Below, piece by piece: positions 2,419 to 35,166 of a stretch of 64,000 bases of DNA. The position numbers and the translations under genes are program-made. The notes below the pieces were generated by a model that searched no databases, was not told the DNA's origin, and was given only the letters and a program-made list of their open reading frames with translations. This DNA is from Evansella clarkii (GTDB lineage Bacteria > Bacillota > Bacilli > Bacillales > Salisediminibacteriaceae): NCBI RefSeq assembly GCF_002019695.1, contig NZ_KV917376.1, positions 4,718,072 through 4,782,071 on the forward strand, written 5' to 3'. The stretch's first letter is position 1, and each line of letters begins with the position of its first letter.

Positions 2419-2654
2419 TATAAATAACCTCCCTAATTAAGTATCTCTTCTTTATTACTATACGTTCCTTGTTTTTTCCTTCAATAAACCCCGATTACTT
2501 ATGTACATCAAGGAATTTTTTTCAAATGTTCACAAAATTGTACGGGGCCAGGCCCCCATTTATCACGTAAAGTAGTTTATTATATTGTAAAATACACTTT
2601 TTTATAAAGCTGCCTCTTGTAAATGGACGGCGGTTAAAGGCAGGAGTGAAATTT

Positions 2655-3356
2655 ATGGAACAGCAAACACTAAAAATCACAGGGGTTCTGTCAGACCCTA
2701 CCCGTTTTTCAATTTATCAGTATGTATCCCGCCAGCATCGTGATGTCACTGTTCAGGAAATTGCCGAAACTTTCGAGATCCATGCAAATGTTGCCCGCCT
2801 CCATTTGACTAAACTTGAAGATGTAAACATGCTTGTTTCAGATACGAAAAAAACAGGTAAAGGAGGAAGACCAAGCCGTTTCTACAGACTTTCTGATGAG
2901 GTTGTCAGCTTGCAGTTTCCTTCCCGGGATTACCAGCGTCTTTCGGAGATTGCAATTCAGACTCTCGCCTCCCTTGGAGAAAAAGGCGAACAGGCGCTGA
3001 TTGAAACAGGCAGAACCTTTGGATTTGAAACGGCAAAGGAGTTTGCCGAGAATCTAAACTATAACCCTAGGCTTATGAGCCCCGAAGAAAAAACAGAGAT
3101 TATTCAAAAAATTGCATTGTCACAAGGCCTGAACCCTGAAATTAATTATAACAACGAAACAAATGAAATTTCATTTCGGATTTTCAACTGCACTTATAAA
3201 GAAATCGCCCAGCACCGCCGGGGAATCTGCAAGATGCACCATGCGCTGATCAATGGCATATTCAGCTATTTTTTCGGGGATATTAAGCTTAAAGAAGAAG
3301 CAAACATGTTCGCCAGAAACGCAGCGCCGTGCATGTATTCAACAGTAACTGTATAG
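2655..3356 (+). CDS. ArsR/SufR-like winged-helix transcriptional regulator
   Basis: 233 residues from the ATG at 2655. AGGAG at 2642-2646 gives 8-nt spacing, and the alternative GTG at 2646 overlaps that site. The N-terminal winged helix (about residues 5-75) contains LSDPTRFSIYQYV and EIHANVARLHLTKLEDVNML. A basic wing GKGGRPSRFY follows, and a C-terminal domain carries isolated cysteines (FNCTYKE, GICKMHH, AAPCMYS), like SufR-type Fe-S sensors. A cluster or metal ligand role is inference. The target is unknown; it sits alone upstream of yqgY. Confidence 0.75.
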   Translation: MEQQTLKITGVLSDPTRFSIYQYVSRQHRDVTVQEIAETFEIHANVARLHLTKLEDVNMLVSDTKKTGKGGRPSRFYRLSDEVVSLQFPSRDYQRLSEIAIQTLASLGEKGEQALIETGRTFGFETAKEFAENLNYNPRLMSPEEKTEIIQKIALSQGLNPEINYNNETNEISFRIFNCTYKEIAQHRRGICKMHHALINGIFSYFFGDIKLKEEANMFARNAAPCMYSTVTV

Positions 3357-3479: not shown

Positions 3480-3725
3480 TTGGATCGCATGTTCCGTGTT
3501 TGCGGCTTCTGGACTGGTATATTTGCCGTATTATTTTTGGTTGGATCCATGCATGAGATGGCGATTTTGTTCTTCGGGCAGACTGGTGCTTTTATCGCGC
3601 TTAGCTACCTGAAGCTGACAGAAAGAGCTTACATGTATATTTTCGGCGCATACTTAACTTTGTTCTTCGTAGGATTCACGTATTTTTCAACATTCCTGCT
3701 CGAACCAGGAATCGGAGGACATTAA
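3480..3725 (+). CDS. yqgY: YqgY, DUF2626 small membrane protein
   Basis: 81 residues with two or three hydrophobic segments, matching the DUF2626 family that occupies this same neighbourhood in Bacillus. The TTG start at 3480 has AAGGAGGG 7 nt upstream; an ATG at 3489 is the alternative. No function is known. A strong terminator follows. Confidence 0.85.
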   Translation: MDRMFRVCGFWTGIFAVLFLVGSMHEMAILFFGQTGAFIALSYLKLTERAYMYIFGAYLTLFFVGFTYFSTFLLEPGIGGH

Positions 3726-3847: not shown

Positions 3848-4981
3848 CTATAAAGAATACGGATCTTCATTGAATATTTTATACTCAGCAGACCTCGCAG
3901 TGTTTTTACCGAGTATATTAACCTGGAAAGCCGAGCTAATGCCTCCAGGCTGAACCAGAGACTGTATAGCTCTGTTTTGCCTGAAACTATCGGAAAAAGG
4001 ATGCGGGTCCCTTACCTCCTGAAGAAATTTAAACAATCCCCCATTTACGAGAAATTTATCCTGATTATTATGATAAATAATAGAATAACCTGCATCTTCC
4101 CCAATCTTAATAAAAGCATCCCACTGTACATGAGAGGTAATATCCATTTCTCCAGGCATATCTAAAGGATTATCAACCAGTTGGTGCTTATGATAACCTC
4201 TTAATGAACCCTCTCTCCTCTCAGGCTGAATTAGCTGCTCATTTGTATACCCATAATCGACTGTTACGAGGAGTCCTCTCTTTTGCCATCCGGCAAATTC
4301 CTTAAGCAGTTTCTTCATTTCCAGATTTACTTCTGTGCGGAATCCTTCCGGCAGCTCAGGACCATAATCCTTTATCCAGCTGATAATCTCATCATTTTCA
4401 CAGGCTCTCAACTCTTCTTTCAGGAGAGCTTCTTCCCCTGGAAAAACAACAGCTTCCAGCAGCTCCTCTTTACCCTGTACAACAGAATGGACAGGCAGGG
4501 CATCAATAAGCTCATTGGAAAAAATTATGCCTGAGAAGTCAGGCACAAGATTCCTTGCTGAGGCTGCAGAGGAAACTATCTGAACCTTTTCTCCGTAAGC
4601 TTCGGATATCTTATTAAGTGTGCTACGGTGATAGGGGCTTGCATCGGCAATAATATATATAATATCTTCATACAATTCAGGCACTTCGTCTTTGAAATAT
4701 GAGAGTACATTAGAAGCAAAGCTTCCATCTCCGCCCCCTGCTTCAAAGATGACTGGTGTAAGCTCCTCTTTCTTGAAAACATCCGCAAAAAACCTGGCAA
4801 ATGTCCGTGCGAAGACAGGGTGTACATGGTTGCTCGTATAGAAGTCTCCTGCTTTCCCGAGCTTCGTTTTCTCTTTCATATAATAACCTGTATCCGCATT
4901 ATACAAGGCAGTCCTTATGTATTCAGCATAGCTCCATGGCGGGTCTGTCTGAGCGAGCAGTTTATAAACAATGTTAGTCAT
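3848..4981 (-). CDS. MidA/NDUFAF7-family SAM-dependent methyltransferase
   Basis: 377 residues from ATG 4981, with AGGAG 8 nt upstream. The N-terminus contains the family signature YIRTALYNADTGYYMK and GKAGDFYTSNHVHPVF. The SAM-binding motif is EAGGGDGSFA, followed by IIFSNELIDALPVHSV and LLVTVDYGY. Family members methylate arginine in eukaryotic complex I assembly; the bacterial substrate is unknown. Single-gene unit; the region upstream holds the small RNA on the opposite strand. Confidence 0.88.
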   Translation of the reverse strand: MTNIVYKLLAQTDPPWSYAEYIRTALYNADTGYYMKEKTKLGKAGDFYTSNHVHPVFARTFARFFADVFKKEELTPVIFEAGGGDGSFASNVLSYFKDEVPELYEDIIYIIADASPYHRSTLNKISEAYGEKVQIVSSAASARNLVPDFSGIIFSNELIDALPVHSVVQGKEELLEAVVFPGEEALLKEELRACENDEIISWIKDYGPELPEGFRTEVNLEMKKLLKEFAGWQKRGLLVTVDYGYTNEQLIQPERREGSLRGYHKHQLVDNPLDMPGEMDITSHVQWDAFIKIGEDAGYSIIYHNNQDKFLVNGGLFKFLQEVRDPHPFSDSFRQNRAIQSLVQPGGISSAFQVNILGKNTARSAEYKIFNEDPYSL

Positions 4982-5120
4982 AAATCCATCTCCTGTGTAT
5001 ATCGTTATCATTTAATCAGGCTGAAATCATATTAGTCCTGGTTGCCTCTGGTCACTGTCTTTCTGTCTTCTGTTCAGACCTGCAGCTGGATTTTTTACAC
5101 CAAAAAATAGTTTAACAACA

Positions 5121-5149
5121 TTGACATAGTGTTTATGTCGATTTATAAT
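5121..5149 (+). promoter_or_regulatory. Consensus sigma-A promoter for the 5.2-kb small RNA
   Basis: TTGACA (5121-5126), exactly 17 nt spacer, TATAAT (5144-5149): a perfect vegetative promoter pointing into a region without any gene. The start is expected about 5156-5158. No Fur box is seen around it. Confidence 0.85.
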
Positions 5150-5156
5150 AAATTTG

Positions 5157-5267
5157 TCAGTAGAACAATGAATTTCGGGAGTTCCCCCTCCCCCCTCAAA
5201 AGTTCATTGATACTTGATTAACTCCCCAAACGACCTTTCATTTCCCCATGAAAGGTCAATTTTTTTT
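5157..5267 (+). ncRNA. Candidate trans-acting C-rich small RNA, about 110 nt
   Basis: A perfect sigma-A promoter at 5121-5149 and a rho-independent terminator at 5232-5267 delimit a transcript with no reading frame preceded by a ribosome site. The 5' hairpin is formed by 5166-5175 pairing with 5200-5209 (10 bp including one G-U). It displays a 24-nt loop rich in C (CCCCCTCCCCCCTC). An unpaired linker carries ACTCCCC, and the terminator loop is TTCCCC. Three exposed CCCC modules are the hallmark of Gram-positive sRNAs such as RsaE/RoxS and FsrA, which pair with Shine-Dalgarno sequences. The sequence itself is not one of these as far as I can recall. Confidence 0.72.
5232..5267 (+). terminator. 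Terminator of the small RNA
   Basis: GACCTTTCAT pairs perfectly with ATGAAAGGTC around loop TTCCCC, followed by AA and eight T. Confidence 0.92.
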
Positions 5268-5282
5268 GCACTTTAAGAAAGC

Positions 5283-5360
5283 ATTAAATTTTGCAGTGAA
5301 GCTGCCTCGACGCAGTGAAAAATTTTTAAGGCTAAAGTATAAATGCAACTACGCCTCTGT
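5283..5360 (+). repeat. Short dispersed repeat, copy 1 (shared with 16433-16512)
   Basis: GGCTAAAGTATAAATGCAAC at about 5332-5351, with flanking GAAGCTG..TCGAC..AGTGAA, recurs in inverse orientation near 16433-16512. Function unknown. Confidence 0.55.
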
Positions 5361-5437
5361 CATCGCGAATCTGCGAGTTTTCTTTACCTGAAAACAAGGG
5401 CGCGGCATTCAGAAAAGCGCCCCCATTCAGACAGCTG

Positions 5438-6079
5438 TTACCAGCCAAAGCCGTTAATAAAAGGATTTATTTCTTTCTCCTTGCCAATCTCCGTAACAGG
5501 ACCATGGCCATTTGCTACAATTGTTTCATCAGGCAGACTGAGCATTTTTTCATAAATCGTATCCATGAGTGTCTCATGGTCTCCCCCTGGCAAATCTGTC
5601 CGGCCTACTCCTCCATGAAACAAAACGTCACCAGAAAATATGATGCCCTTTTCTTTCCAGTAATAAGAAACACTTCCTGGAGAATGACCTGGTGTTTCAA
5701 GTATTTGTAAGTGGATTCCTATTAGTGAAATGTCTTTTTCTTTCGAGGACAGAATATGATCAGCCGGACCAGCCTTCACCGGCTCTATCCCCGGAAAGAG
5801 ACCTGACCCGTTAAGCTGTGGATCAGTGAGCCATTCAGCTTCTTTTTCGTGTATGTATACTGGCGCTTTAAAAGTGTCTCTCACGATGTCCACTGCCCCG
5901 ATATGATCGAAGTGAGCGTGTGTCAGCAATATTGCCTTTACAGATATGTTTTCATCTTTCAGCCAGCCCAGCAGCTTTTCTCCATCACCGCCAGGATCCA
6001 CGATAATCCCCTCTGTCCCATCGTAAATGACAAAACTGTTTGTTTGCAGAGGCCCCAGGGGAATTTGTTTCCATTTCAT
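5438..6079 (-). CDS. yqgX: YqgX, MBL-fold metallo-hydrolase (glyoxalase II-like)
   Basis: 213 residues, ATG at 6079 after AGAGGAGG. The metallo-beta-lactamase fold is shown by THAHFDHIG (metal ligands HxHxDH), further ligands in ETPGHSPGS and FSGDVLF, and a C-terminal NGHGPVT. The length fits the compact YqgX/glyoxalase II-like branch acting on thioesters; the exact substrate is unproven. Positional orthologue of B. subtilis yqgX. Confidence 0.88.
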   Translation of the reverse strand: MKWKQIPLGPLQTNSFVIYDGTEGIIVDPGGDGEKLLGWLKDENISVKAILLTHAHFDHIGAVDIVRDTFKAPVYIHEKEAEWLTDPQLNGSGLFPGIEPVKAGPADHILSSKEKDISLIGIHLQILETPGHSPGSVSYYWKEKGIIFSGDVLFHGGVGRTDLPGGDHETLMDTIYEKMLSLPDETIVANGHGPVTEIGKEKEINPFINGFGW

Positions 6080-6342
6080 AATTTATACCTCCTCTTATTA
6101 CACTACTAGTATTGTACTATTTTAAATGCTTACAGGAAAATAATTAATTCTCCCCCTTTTTCAGTCTTTATTCAGCTTTCCCTCGACAAAAGCTAAAAAA
6201 GACAGTAAAATATAATATGTATTTTGTTCTCATAATAAAGAATGATGGCTGATTGTCCATCACTGTATTCCATCTTTCAGAAAAGCAGCATTCTGGAAAC
6301 ATTTACAGAAAAAGGATTACATAATTGAAGGAGGCACAATAA

Positions 6343-6528
6343 ATGGAATTTGGTATCATTACCTTGTTAATTGCCATTTTTGCAGCAATTGGCTTGTTCC
6401 GCGAACTGAAAACGAAAAACTTTTTCGCTGTCGGTTTCGCAGCAGTTACTGTTGCTGTGTTTGGGTGGTTCGCTGTCATGACACTTTACTCTGTAATATT
6501 CACTGGCGGCGGTGGAACAGTAGGATAA
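6343..6528 (+). CDS. yqgW: YqgW, DUF2759 small membrane protein
   Basis: 61 residues with two hydrophobic helices separated by RELKTKNF and a glycine-rich tail, matching DUF2759 and the expected synteny. ATG follows GAAGGAGG. Function unknown. Confidence 0.85.
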   Translation: MEFGIITLLIAIFAAIGLFRELKTKNFFAVGFAAVTVAVFGWFAVMTLYSVIFTGGGGTVG

Positions 6529-24047: not shown

Positions 24048-24306
24048 AACAATAGACACCTCTGAAAGGTGTCTATTAATGGTTTGCCCGCAATGCGGTT
24101 ATCTTCCAGATTTCACGAACCCGCACTAGGCAGGTGGGTGCCTTCAAAAACATTTCCAGCTTCCTGCCGAAGTACTGAACGTACCATTAACCAGGCATGC
24201 TGTACGTGTTCTAATATTAGGCTCCCAATGTGAATTGGTGTTCGGTTCGAATTAAACTCGAAGTTCACCAACACCGCAGGCAGCATTGTTTTTTCCTAAT
24301 TAATTT
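24048..24306 (-). ncRNA. Candidate structured non-coding RNA upstream of pbpA
   Basis: Roughly 255 nt with its own promoter and no good reading frame. Visible pairings (minus strand): hairpin GGTGTT with AACACC enclosing TTCGA/TCGAA, GGCAGG with CCTGCC, long-range TTAATGGT with ACCATTAA, and ends TGCC.TGCGGT with ACCGCA.GGCA. It closes with an 11-bp hairpin AATAGACACCT/AGGTGTCTATT followed only by a poor T run. A rod with paired ends and a bubble holding CCGAACACC recalls Firmicute 6S RNA, but I cannot confirm that. It could also be a long pbpA leader. Confidence 0.48.
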
Positions 24307-32350: not shown

Positions 32351-32731
32351 TTCCCCCCGCTCCTCCTCTTCTGCTCTGCTAGGCAGCCCGGCTGTCATAG
32401 ACGTTCCCCATCCTTAGATCCGTAGCTTTGCGTCTCTATTTTTCAATAGATTTGCCCTTATCTAGAGAAGAATGGCTATTAATTCTTAACTTACTAAGAT
32501 TATATTAGTATCCAAATATAAATTTTAGGGAATCTTGTCAGGAAAACAAAAATAGGCTAATAGTCCCGAAATAATTGTTAAACTGACAAAATCCATGTCT
32601 TCGAATTTTTCATTTATTATAAATAAAGATAATTGTATGGCTTTATTTTCATCTCTGTCTTCCATCAAGAGATTTTCGACATTTAGGCGAAAAAAAACCG
32701 GCTACTGGGCCGGTTTTTGCTAATCCTGTCG
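32351..32731. other. Non-coding gap upstream of sinI
   Basis: AT-rich leader and probable sinI promoter region plus the terminator at 32690-32718. I could not pick a clear Spo0A box or SinR operator and see no gene. Confidence 0.5.
32690..32718 (-). terminator. Terminator of the nfeD-like gene
   Basis: AAAAAACCGGC and GCCGGTTTTT with a short loop; symmetric A/T tracts. Confidence 0.9.
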
Positions 32732-34797: not shown

Positions 34798-35166
34798 ATG
34801 CGGCCTGTTCTGGTGCTTGCAATCATTATTCTTTTCATAATAAGTGCTTACTATGACCTGAATAACGGTACTATACCTGATAATCATTATGAGGGCAACA
34901 ATACAACGGTAAATACAGAAGAAAAAAAGGAAGGGAACAATGAAATATCCAGCAGCCAGGACTATCTGGAAGTCATTGTGGAACCAGGCCATACCGTTTA
35001 CGGCATTGTACGGGCATTGCATGATACGGAGCTTACTGTACCACCGTATATAGTTACGGAGGATTTCGAACTTCTGAATCCTGGGACGGAAGCCCACAGA
35101 ATTCAAACCGGACAAGCATACCGCTTTCCTGTATATAATAGTTCAGAATCAGATAATCAGTCATAG
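34798..35166 (+). CDS. yqfZ: YqfZ, LysM-like exported protein
   Basis: 122 residues, ATG after AGGAAGGAG. N-terminal membrane anchor or signal (VLVLAIIILFIISAYYDL), an acidic Asn-rich linker, then a LysM-like module (VIVEPGHTVYGIVRALHD ... LNPGTEAHRIQTGQAYRFP). Precedes ispG exactly as yqfZ does in B. subtilis; function unknown, possibly wall-bound. Confidence 0.8.
   Translation: MRPVLVLAIIILFIISAYYDLNNGTIPDNHYEGNNTTVNTEEKKEGNNEISSSQDYLEVIVEPGHTVYGIVRALHDTELTVPPYIVTEDFELLNPGTEAHRIQTGQAYRFPVYNSSESDNQS

Follow-up and report, generated by a model that had tools for sequence, protein, structure and literature searches.

The described regulators closest to the small RNA considered here are RsaE/RoxS, FsrA and CsfG. 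In the portions of the published accounts consulted, RsaE/RoxS (RF01820) of Bacillus subtilis and Staphylococcus aureus is 115 nt long, carries several C-rich motifs, is itself controlled by regulators of respiration and redox state (ResD, Rex) and binds Shine-Dalgarno (SD) regions (PMC4409812, PMC5419742, PMC8464778, PMC9217828), with its C-rich motifs pairing with SD sequences (PMC9217828, PMC4409812). FsrA of Bacillus subtilis, as excerpted from its description, is an 84-nt RNA whose C-rich regions are proposed to pair with ribosome binding sites and whose targets include sdhCAB, citB and resA; its C-rich regions 1 and 2 play no part in the pairing demonstrated in vivo to date (PMC8464778). 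CsfG of B. subtilis, again as excerpted, has three C-rich regions predicted to be single-stranded (PMC4409812).

The RNA described here is of similar size. Its gene lies at 5156..5267 (+) of a 64,000-nucleotide stretch of Evansella clarkii DNA (the window), in a 426-nt gap between two genes that are both on the opposite strand. We infer a transcript of about 111 nt, starting about 7 nt past the -10 box and ending in a T-run. The original prediction, made from the letters of the window, had claimed a free-standing small RNA with a perfect TTGACA-17-TATAAT promoter, a strong terminator and several exposed C-rich segments, and each of these claims held. The sigma-A promoter (5121..5149, +) has TTGACA at 5121-5126 and, 17 nt on, TATAAT at 5144-5149, matching the consensus at 12 of 12 positions, and is the sole perfect one among 10 promoter-like sites in 4000-6500. 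TTGACA is present in all 40 tabulated loci with this form of the RNA (the long form), next to a -10 box that is TATAAT or a variant. The intrinsic terminator (5232..5267, +) has a 10-bp stem (5232-5257) closed by a C-rich UUCCCC loop and followed by a T-run to 5267; double changes are found at 10 of its 11 pairs. The locus is a stand-alone, non-coding gene with its own promoter and terminator and a conserved C-rich seed predicted to be unpaired, which are the marks of a trans-acting C-rich base-pairing sRNA.

Folding of 5157-5275 gave a predicted free energy of -30.1 kcal/mol (z -5.4), a value reached by none of 200 shuffled sequences. The predicted 5´ stem-loop (5158..5217, +) comprises an outer helix and an inner helix, CAAUGAAUUU/AAGUUCAUUG, with compensatory changes in the outer helices across families, and is topped by an apical hairpin, GGGAG-UUCCCC-CUCCC (5177..5192, +), that is unchanged in 33 of 33 sequences. 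In this hairpin the SD-like GGGAG (5177-5181) pairs with CUCCC (5188-5192) at a probability of about 0.98-1.0 and so masks part of the C-run, and the loop presents UUCCCC (5182-5187). Also exposed in the predicted fold are CCCUC (5193-5197), directly after the apical stem, the anti-SD motif ACUCCCC (5221-5227) in the 99.6% conserved linker GAUUAACUCCCCAA (5216..5229, +) and UUCCCC in the terminator loop (5242-5247); the unpaired probability is at least 0.99 from U5218 to C5227, and near 1.0 at the exposed C-rich positions. The linker and terminator-loop motifs are as the original prediction placed them. The 10-bp hairpin that it proposed to display CCCCCTCCCCCCTC needs correction, since GGGAG/CUCCC closes part of that stretch and it is the rest of the C-run that is exposed. 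An alternative fold, GGGAGUU/AACUCCC, was set aside as the resting state because its energy is -22.8 vs -30.1 kcal/mol. The GGGAG masking segment is one of four features that go beyond the original prediction, the others being an operator-like palindrome over the -35 box, a fixed synteny and a short form of the RNA elsewhere.

In an alignment of 33 sequences fitted to the model, 16 of 32 base pairs showed double changes, of which the terminator accounts for 10 and the outer helices for 4; none of 500 shuffles did as well, and sliding controls were far lower. The unfitted 19-sequence family alignment gave 7 of 32, all in the terminator. The GGGAG/CUCCC helix never changes among the 33 sequences, and covariation therefore cannot speak for it.

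Conservation follows the C-rich parts, in a comparison fixed beforehand that the original prediction passed. Across 20 relatives (the window's own genome and the near-identical L002 left out), identity to the window was 88% for the transcript, 99% for the C-rich core and 99.6% for the linker, and 29-33% for the flanks. A DNA search found the sRNA once per genome in all 9 genus genomes and in 22 of the 35 from the family, our own included. With a covariance model built from 19 of the 22 family sequences, 299 order genomes yielded 18 hits, 17 of them real on reading: 14 come from four additional families, and the rest are our own copy and those of two other family members. A wider model run on a class sample of 398 returned the window's own copy and one chance match; these searches use strict filters, and a real long form, L103, was missed. 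A pattern scan of named genomes, many of them the same as in the genus, family and order searches, gave 23 stretches, 22 of which are the sRNA on reading and one of which, on a MAG contig, is a chance match. The hosts belong to Evansella, Salipaludibacillus, Alkalihalobacterium, Alkalihalobacillus, Alteribacillus, Anaerobacillus, Salisediminibacterium and Texcoconibacillus, with one genome labelled Litchfieldia and two unclassified Bacillus; going by their names, we take them to be mostly alkaliphiles or halophiles. Five matches (L040, which is the eighteenth order hit, L063, L070, L197 and L198) were discarded on reading as chance. No earlier report of the sRNA was found by title or start of abstract in the open-licence PMC literature. 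That the sRNA gene is genuine, widely conserved and missing from Rfam is almost certain.

The gene keeps its place. In 36 of 36 long-form loci (L001-L022, L026-L039) the sRNA lies between a methyltransferase gene and an MBL-fold hydrolase gene, both on the opposite strand. By family match these are, in the window, a SAM-dependent methyltransferase (Methyltransf_28; 3848..5011, -) and an MBL-fold hydrolase (5438..6079, -), the latter referred to here as YqgX. A DUF2626 protein (family match; 3480..3725, +) is a further syntenic neighbour, and it is the known neighbour on that side at the named loci L068, L074 and L077, where the methyltransferase is absent.

How does this RNA relate to the described regulators? 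The original prediction held it to be unrelated in sequence to those known, and for RsaE/RoxS this was borne out. No Rfam 15 family, RsaE/RoxS included, matched the sRNA locus at gathering level in the scan of the window, and RF01820 (cut-off 79 bits) gave no match in the window at gathering level, in 5000-5450 at E<=5 or in our own genome at E<=0.01. Scanning 5000-5450 against Rfam at E<=5 produced three hits that fall well short of gathering and were taken as chance, including IR_84 (E 0.74), which overlaps the sRNA on the other strand. At E<=1 the loci of nine relatives gave ten weak hits, all below gathering and likewise taken as chance, among them an rnk_pseudo match (E 0.61) that overlaps the short RNA in L096. 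On the predicted fold, UCCCC-type motifs able to pair with SD sequences are exposed, a likeness to RsaE/RoxS in the way of working only; the two RNAs differ in locus, and the sRNA promoter has no Rex-type site. FsrA and CsfG are set apart by their descriptions and not by sequence comparison: FsrA is controlled by Fur, whereas no Fur-box-like site is found at the sRNA promoter, and CsfG is, in the excerpted account, sporulation-specific and perhaps induced by oxidative stress (PMC4409812), whereas the sRNA promoter is of the sigma-A type. These two site searches covered the surroundings of 5100-5267 with up to three mismatches. The motifs used were a Fur box and a Rex-type TTGTGAA-N6-TTCACAA.

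A shorter RNA occupies the same place in other families. We read the locus in 30 hand-picked genomes that had given no model hits, nine of them from the 13 hit-free family genomes. In seven of these we saw an RNA with C-rich motifs behind a similar promoter, namely the long form in L103 and a shorter kind in six others (L093, L095, L096, L098, L111 and L115); a simple scan of the other 23, including all nine family genomes, revealed no such RNA. An exact short-form pattern matched 11 of the 398 class genomes, including three from the set just described. All 11 of these loci adjoin DUF2626 or the methyltransferase, and 10 include the hydrolase, the eleventh being incomplete. In total the short form is found in 14 genomes of seven families, and typically consists of AGTAGCTTAACTATATCCCCTCCCATTAT...AACATCCCCCA plus a terminator, with the C-rich motifs kept and GGGAG not seen. 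The apparent homology of the short and long forms rests on position, promoter palindrome and C-rich motifs, and not on an alignment score.

The two forms differ in the company they keep. We ran the RsaE model on 40 genomes, comprising 23 of the 37 long-form genomes seen, 9 of the 14 short-form genomes and 8 family genomes without the sRNA. RsaE scored above the cut-off in 8 of the 9 short-form genomes, with the ninth under it at 2.3e-9, and in none of the 23 long-form or 8 sRNA-free family genomes. Two weak matches in long-form genomes (E about 0.001-0.002) are chance on reading, and of 14 named control genomes B. subtilis was the only one to match. In all nine short-form genomes tested (one with RsaE below the cut-off), the short-form homologue and RsaE lie at different loci. 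The sRNA is therefore not RsaE, and in this sample the long form and RsaE do not co-occur. This falls short of showing replacement, given that the RsaE-negative genomes share ancestry and that eight relatives lack both RNAs. We offer as a tentative and rather doubtful scenario that an ancient short C-rich RNA, still present at one locus in RoxS-bearing genomes, gained the hairpin with GGGAG as a built-in SD mimic in alkaliphilic lineages and there took over from RoxS/RsaE, which did not turn up in these genomes, as a respiratory-regulon sRNA of Bacillales controlled by a so far undescribed respiration regulator that binds AACACT-N8-AGTGTT. A further C-rich sRNA that is conserved over many relatives, keeps to a single locus, occurs in genomes where the RsaE search came up empty and appears linked to respiration genes would allow the idea that one metabolic sRNA can substitute for another to be put to the test. 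Many of these bacilli are alkaliphiles with unusual energy coupling.

The case for a respiratory link starts at the promoter. An operator-like inverted repeat, TTAACAAC-N8-AGTGTTTA (5112..5135), is centred on the -35 box; its left arm is degraded in the window's genome, and relatives carry variants of TTAACACT-N8-AGTGTTAA. Among long-form promoters AACACT-N8-AGTGTT is exact in 15 of 40 and CACT-N8-AGTG is present in 19 of 40; the latter is found in 7 of 14 short-form promoters. Across 21 chosen genomes the full palindrome occurred at 31 sites vs 8 for the reversed pattern, with matches within one genus not independent. Ten of the 31 are sRNA promoters. The others include four sites before resA (G023, G026, G029, G030), one before a resB gene with no intervening resA ORF (G024), three before cydD (G002, G006, G007), one before odhA (G002), one before nuoA (G005) and two beside coxB-like genes (G025, G026), in divergent gaps where the other gene encodes an ABC-transporter ATPase. 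CydD and OdhA could be read only in part, as the loci stop within these genes, and so score under their cut-offs. In our own genome, a looser palindrome (two mismatches) matched at 7 sites vs 1 for the control. One is the sRNA, and of the other six, two are before nuoA and odhA and four lie elsewhere; the nuoA site is 57 bp upstream of TATAAT, not over the promoter.

This recurrence suggests a respiratory regulon, though the repeat might instead be no shared operator at all, the respiratory matches arising by coincidence or through different regulators. The 8 control matches fit such a reading, as do the variable position of the site relative to the promoter from gene to gene and the 9 of 21 non-sRNA sites that are not at respiratory promoters. 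Against it, the same operons were matched in different species (res five times, cydD three, coxB-like genes twice), and the palindrome arms are preserved at the sRNA. We consider coincidence rather unlikely, and lean slightly towards control of the sRNA by a respiration-linked regulator. In that model a transcription factor recognizing AACACT-N8-AGTGTT would gate the strong sigma-A promoter, with repression the likelier mode since the site covers the -35 box. Because the same kind of site stands before nuoA, odhA, resA and cydD and near coxB-like genes, production of the sRNA probably depends on the respiratory or redox state. The palindrome may also serve as a DNA motif for finding a respiratory regulator in these bacilli.

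One neighbour is a weak candidate for the operator-binding protein, namely an HTH_20 regulator (2646..3356, +) that is distantly SufR-like. Of 22 named long-form loci, 18 have it close to the sRNA, L068 shows none and the remaining three do not extend far enough to decide. It was also found once beside DUF2626 without the sRNA (L102), and no operator-like site precedes its own gene at up to three mismatches. On the SufR model the HTH protein scores 30 bits (E 3.7e-7) against a cut-off of 178.8. SufR itself was set aside as the operator-binder for want of such a site at the HTH gene and because the SufR site given in the excerpted literature, CAAC-N6-GTTG, is unlike the palindrome (PMC8593673, PMC11995493).

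Two side observations concern the same palindrome. In three Evansella-group genomes (L149, L177, L178), an ORF that reads as a LuxR-type response regulator stands just before cydD, next to the palindrome. Two of the nine non-respiratory sites, L147 (1501-1520) and L179 (991-1010), from genomes G029 and G025 of genus g6, fall just 3´ of an ETF-QO ferredoxin-like gene, between convergent gene ends and directly after TATAAT; they possibly mark a second small RNA under the same regulator.

As to what the sRNA does, we think it likely that it acts by C-rich pairing with start sites. The exposed segments (loop UUCCCC, linker ACUCCCC and terminator loop UUCCCC) would base-pair with the G-rich SD sequences of a group of mRNAs and so keep ribosomes from binding, the mechanism reported for RoxS/RsaE, and GGGAG may hold back part of the C-run, to be released only by a stronger partner. 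Such SD blocking is likely on the basis of anatomy and precedent. For the fuller picture of a trans-acting, RoxS-like, respiration-linked sRNA that blocks SD sequences, our confidence is somewhat lower, if still on the favourable side.

The best single target candidate, nuoA, was retained only as a weak one. Its start site, GGAGGGGAGTG, outdoes all 51 window starts chosen by a simple rule in pairing with the linker; the reversed linker binds nuoA almost as well (-12.8 vs -14.6) and reaches -15.1 at a window start, and for C-run binding 4 of the 51 window starts are at least as good. Of 18 family genomes with the sRNA (own included), 14 have GGAGGGGAGTG before the nuoA start, as do 2 of 4 nuoA-bearing relatives without an sRNA match and none of 5 long-form genomes from other families; the motif is thus not specific to sRNA-bearing genomes. 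The gene itself was found in 22 of 22 searched sRNA-bearing relatives and 4 of 8 without the sRNA, along family lines. The linker complement GGGGAGTTAATC, with at most one mismatch, gave 22 hits, among them the sRNA itself, vs 15 with the sequence reversed; none of the remaining hits is at a convincing start site. We also noted an ORF start at window 48803 (-), preceded by GGGGGAGG, that showed strong pairing with both C-rich segments in the duplex scan.

A different partner can be imagined, with the C-runs bound by a G-rich sponge or a protein, or with GGGAG capturing other C-rich sRNAs. The invariance of GGGAG and its partner in 33 of 33 sequences, without compensatory change, would suit such a role, and a G-rich sponge of B. 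subtilis, RosA, binds RoxS and FsrA according to the excerpted review (PMC8464778). Yet GGGAG is almost fully paired in the predicted fold, and the short forms do without it while keeping the C-rich motifs. We therefore judge action mainly on another RNA or protein distinctly unlikely, and prefer pairing with mRNA start sites.

That the RNA might be a short mRNA, or a dual-function RNA, for a small peptide (M-N/I-F-G-S-S-P-S-P...) is very unlikely. A 17-codon ATG ORF from 5168 does cover the conserved C-rich part. In 22 sequences, our own included, it is not kept, in agreement with the absence of coding signal claimed originally, and was rejected: the frame is broken or ends elsewhere in many of them, small indels in the A-run alter the C-terminal part, L007 and L018 have the ORF out of frame, and in L016 it is only two codons long. 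The ATG has no SD before it, and the short form differs in sequence. That the sRNA is a 3´ UTR or attenuator of a neighbouring gene, for which its place in the 426-nt gap might speak, is barely credible given that both neighbours are on the opposite strand and that the promoter is its own, perfect and conserved.

Elsewhere, the window holds a Fur-box-like site with one mismatch, TGATAATCATTATGA, at 34878-34892, as well as two structured RNAs above the Rfam gathering score, a 6S RNA at 24081-24285 (-) and a c-di-GMP-I riboswitch at 32379-32466 (-).
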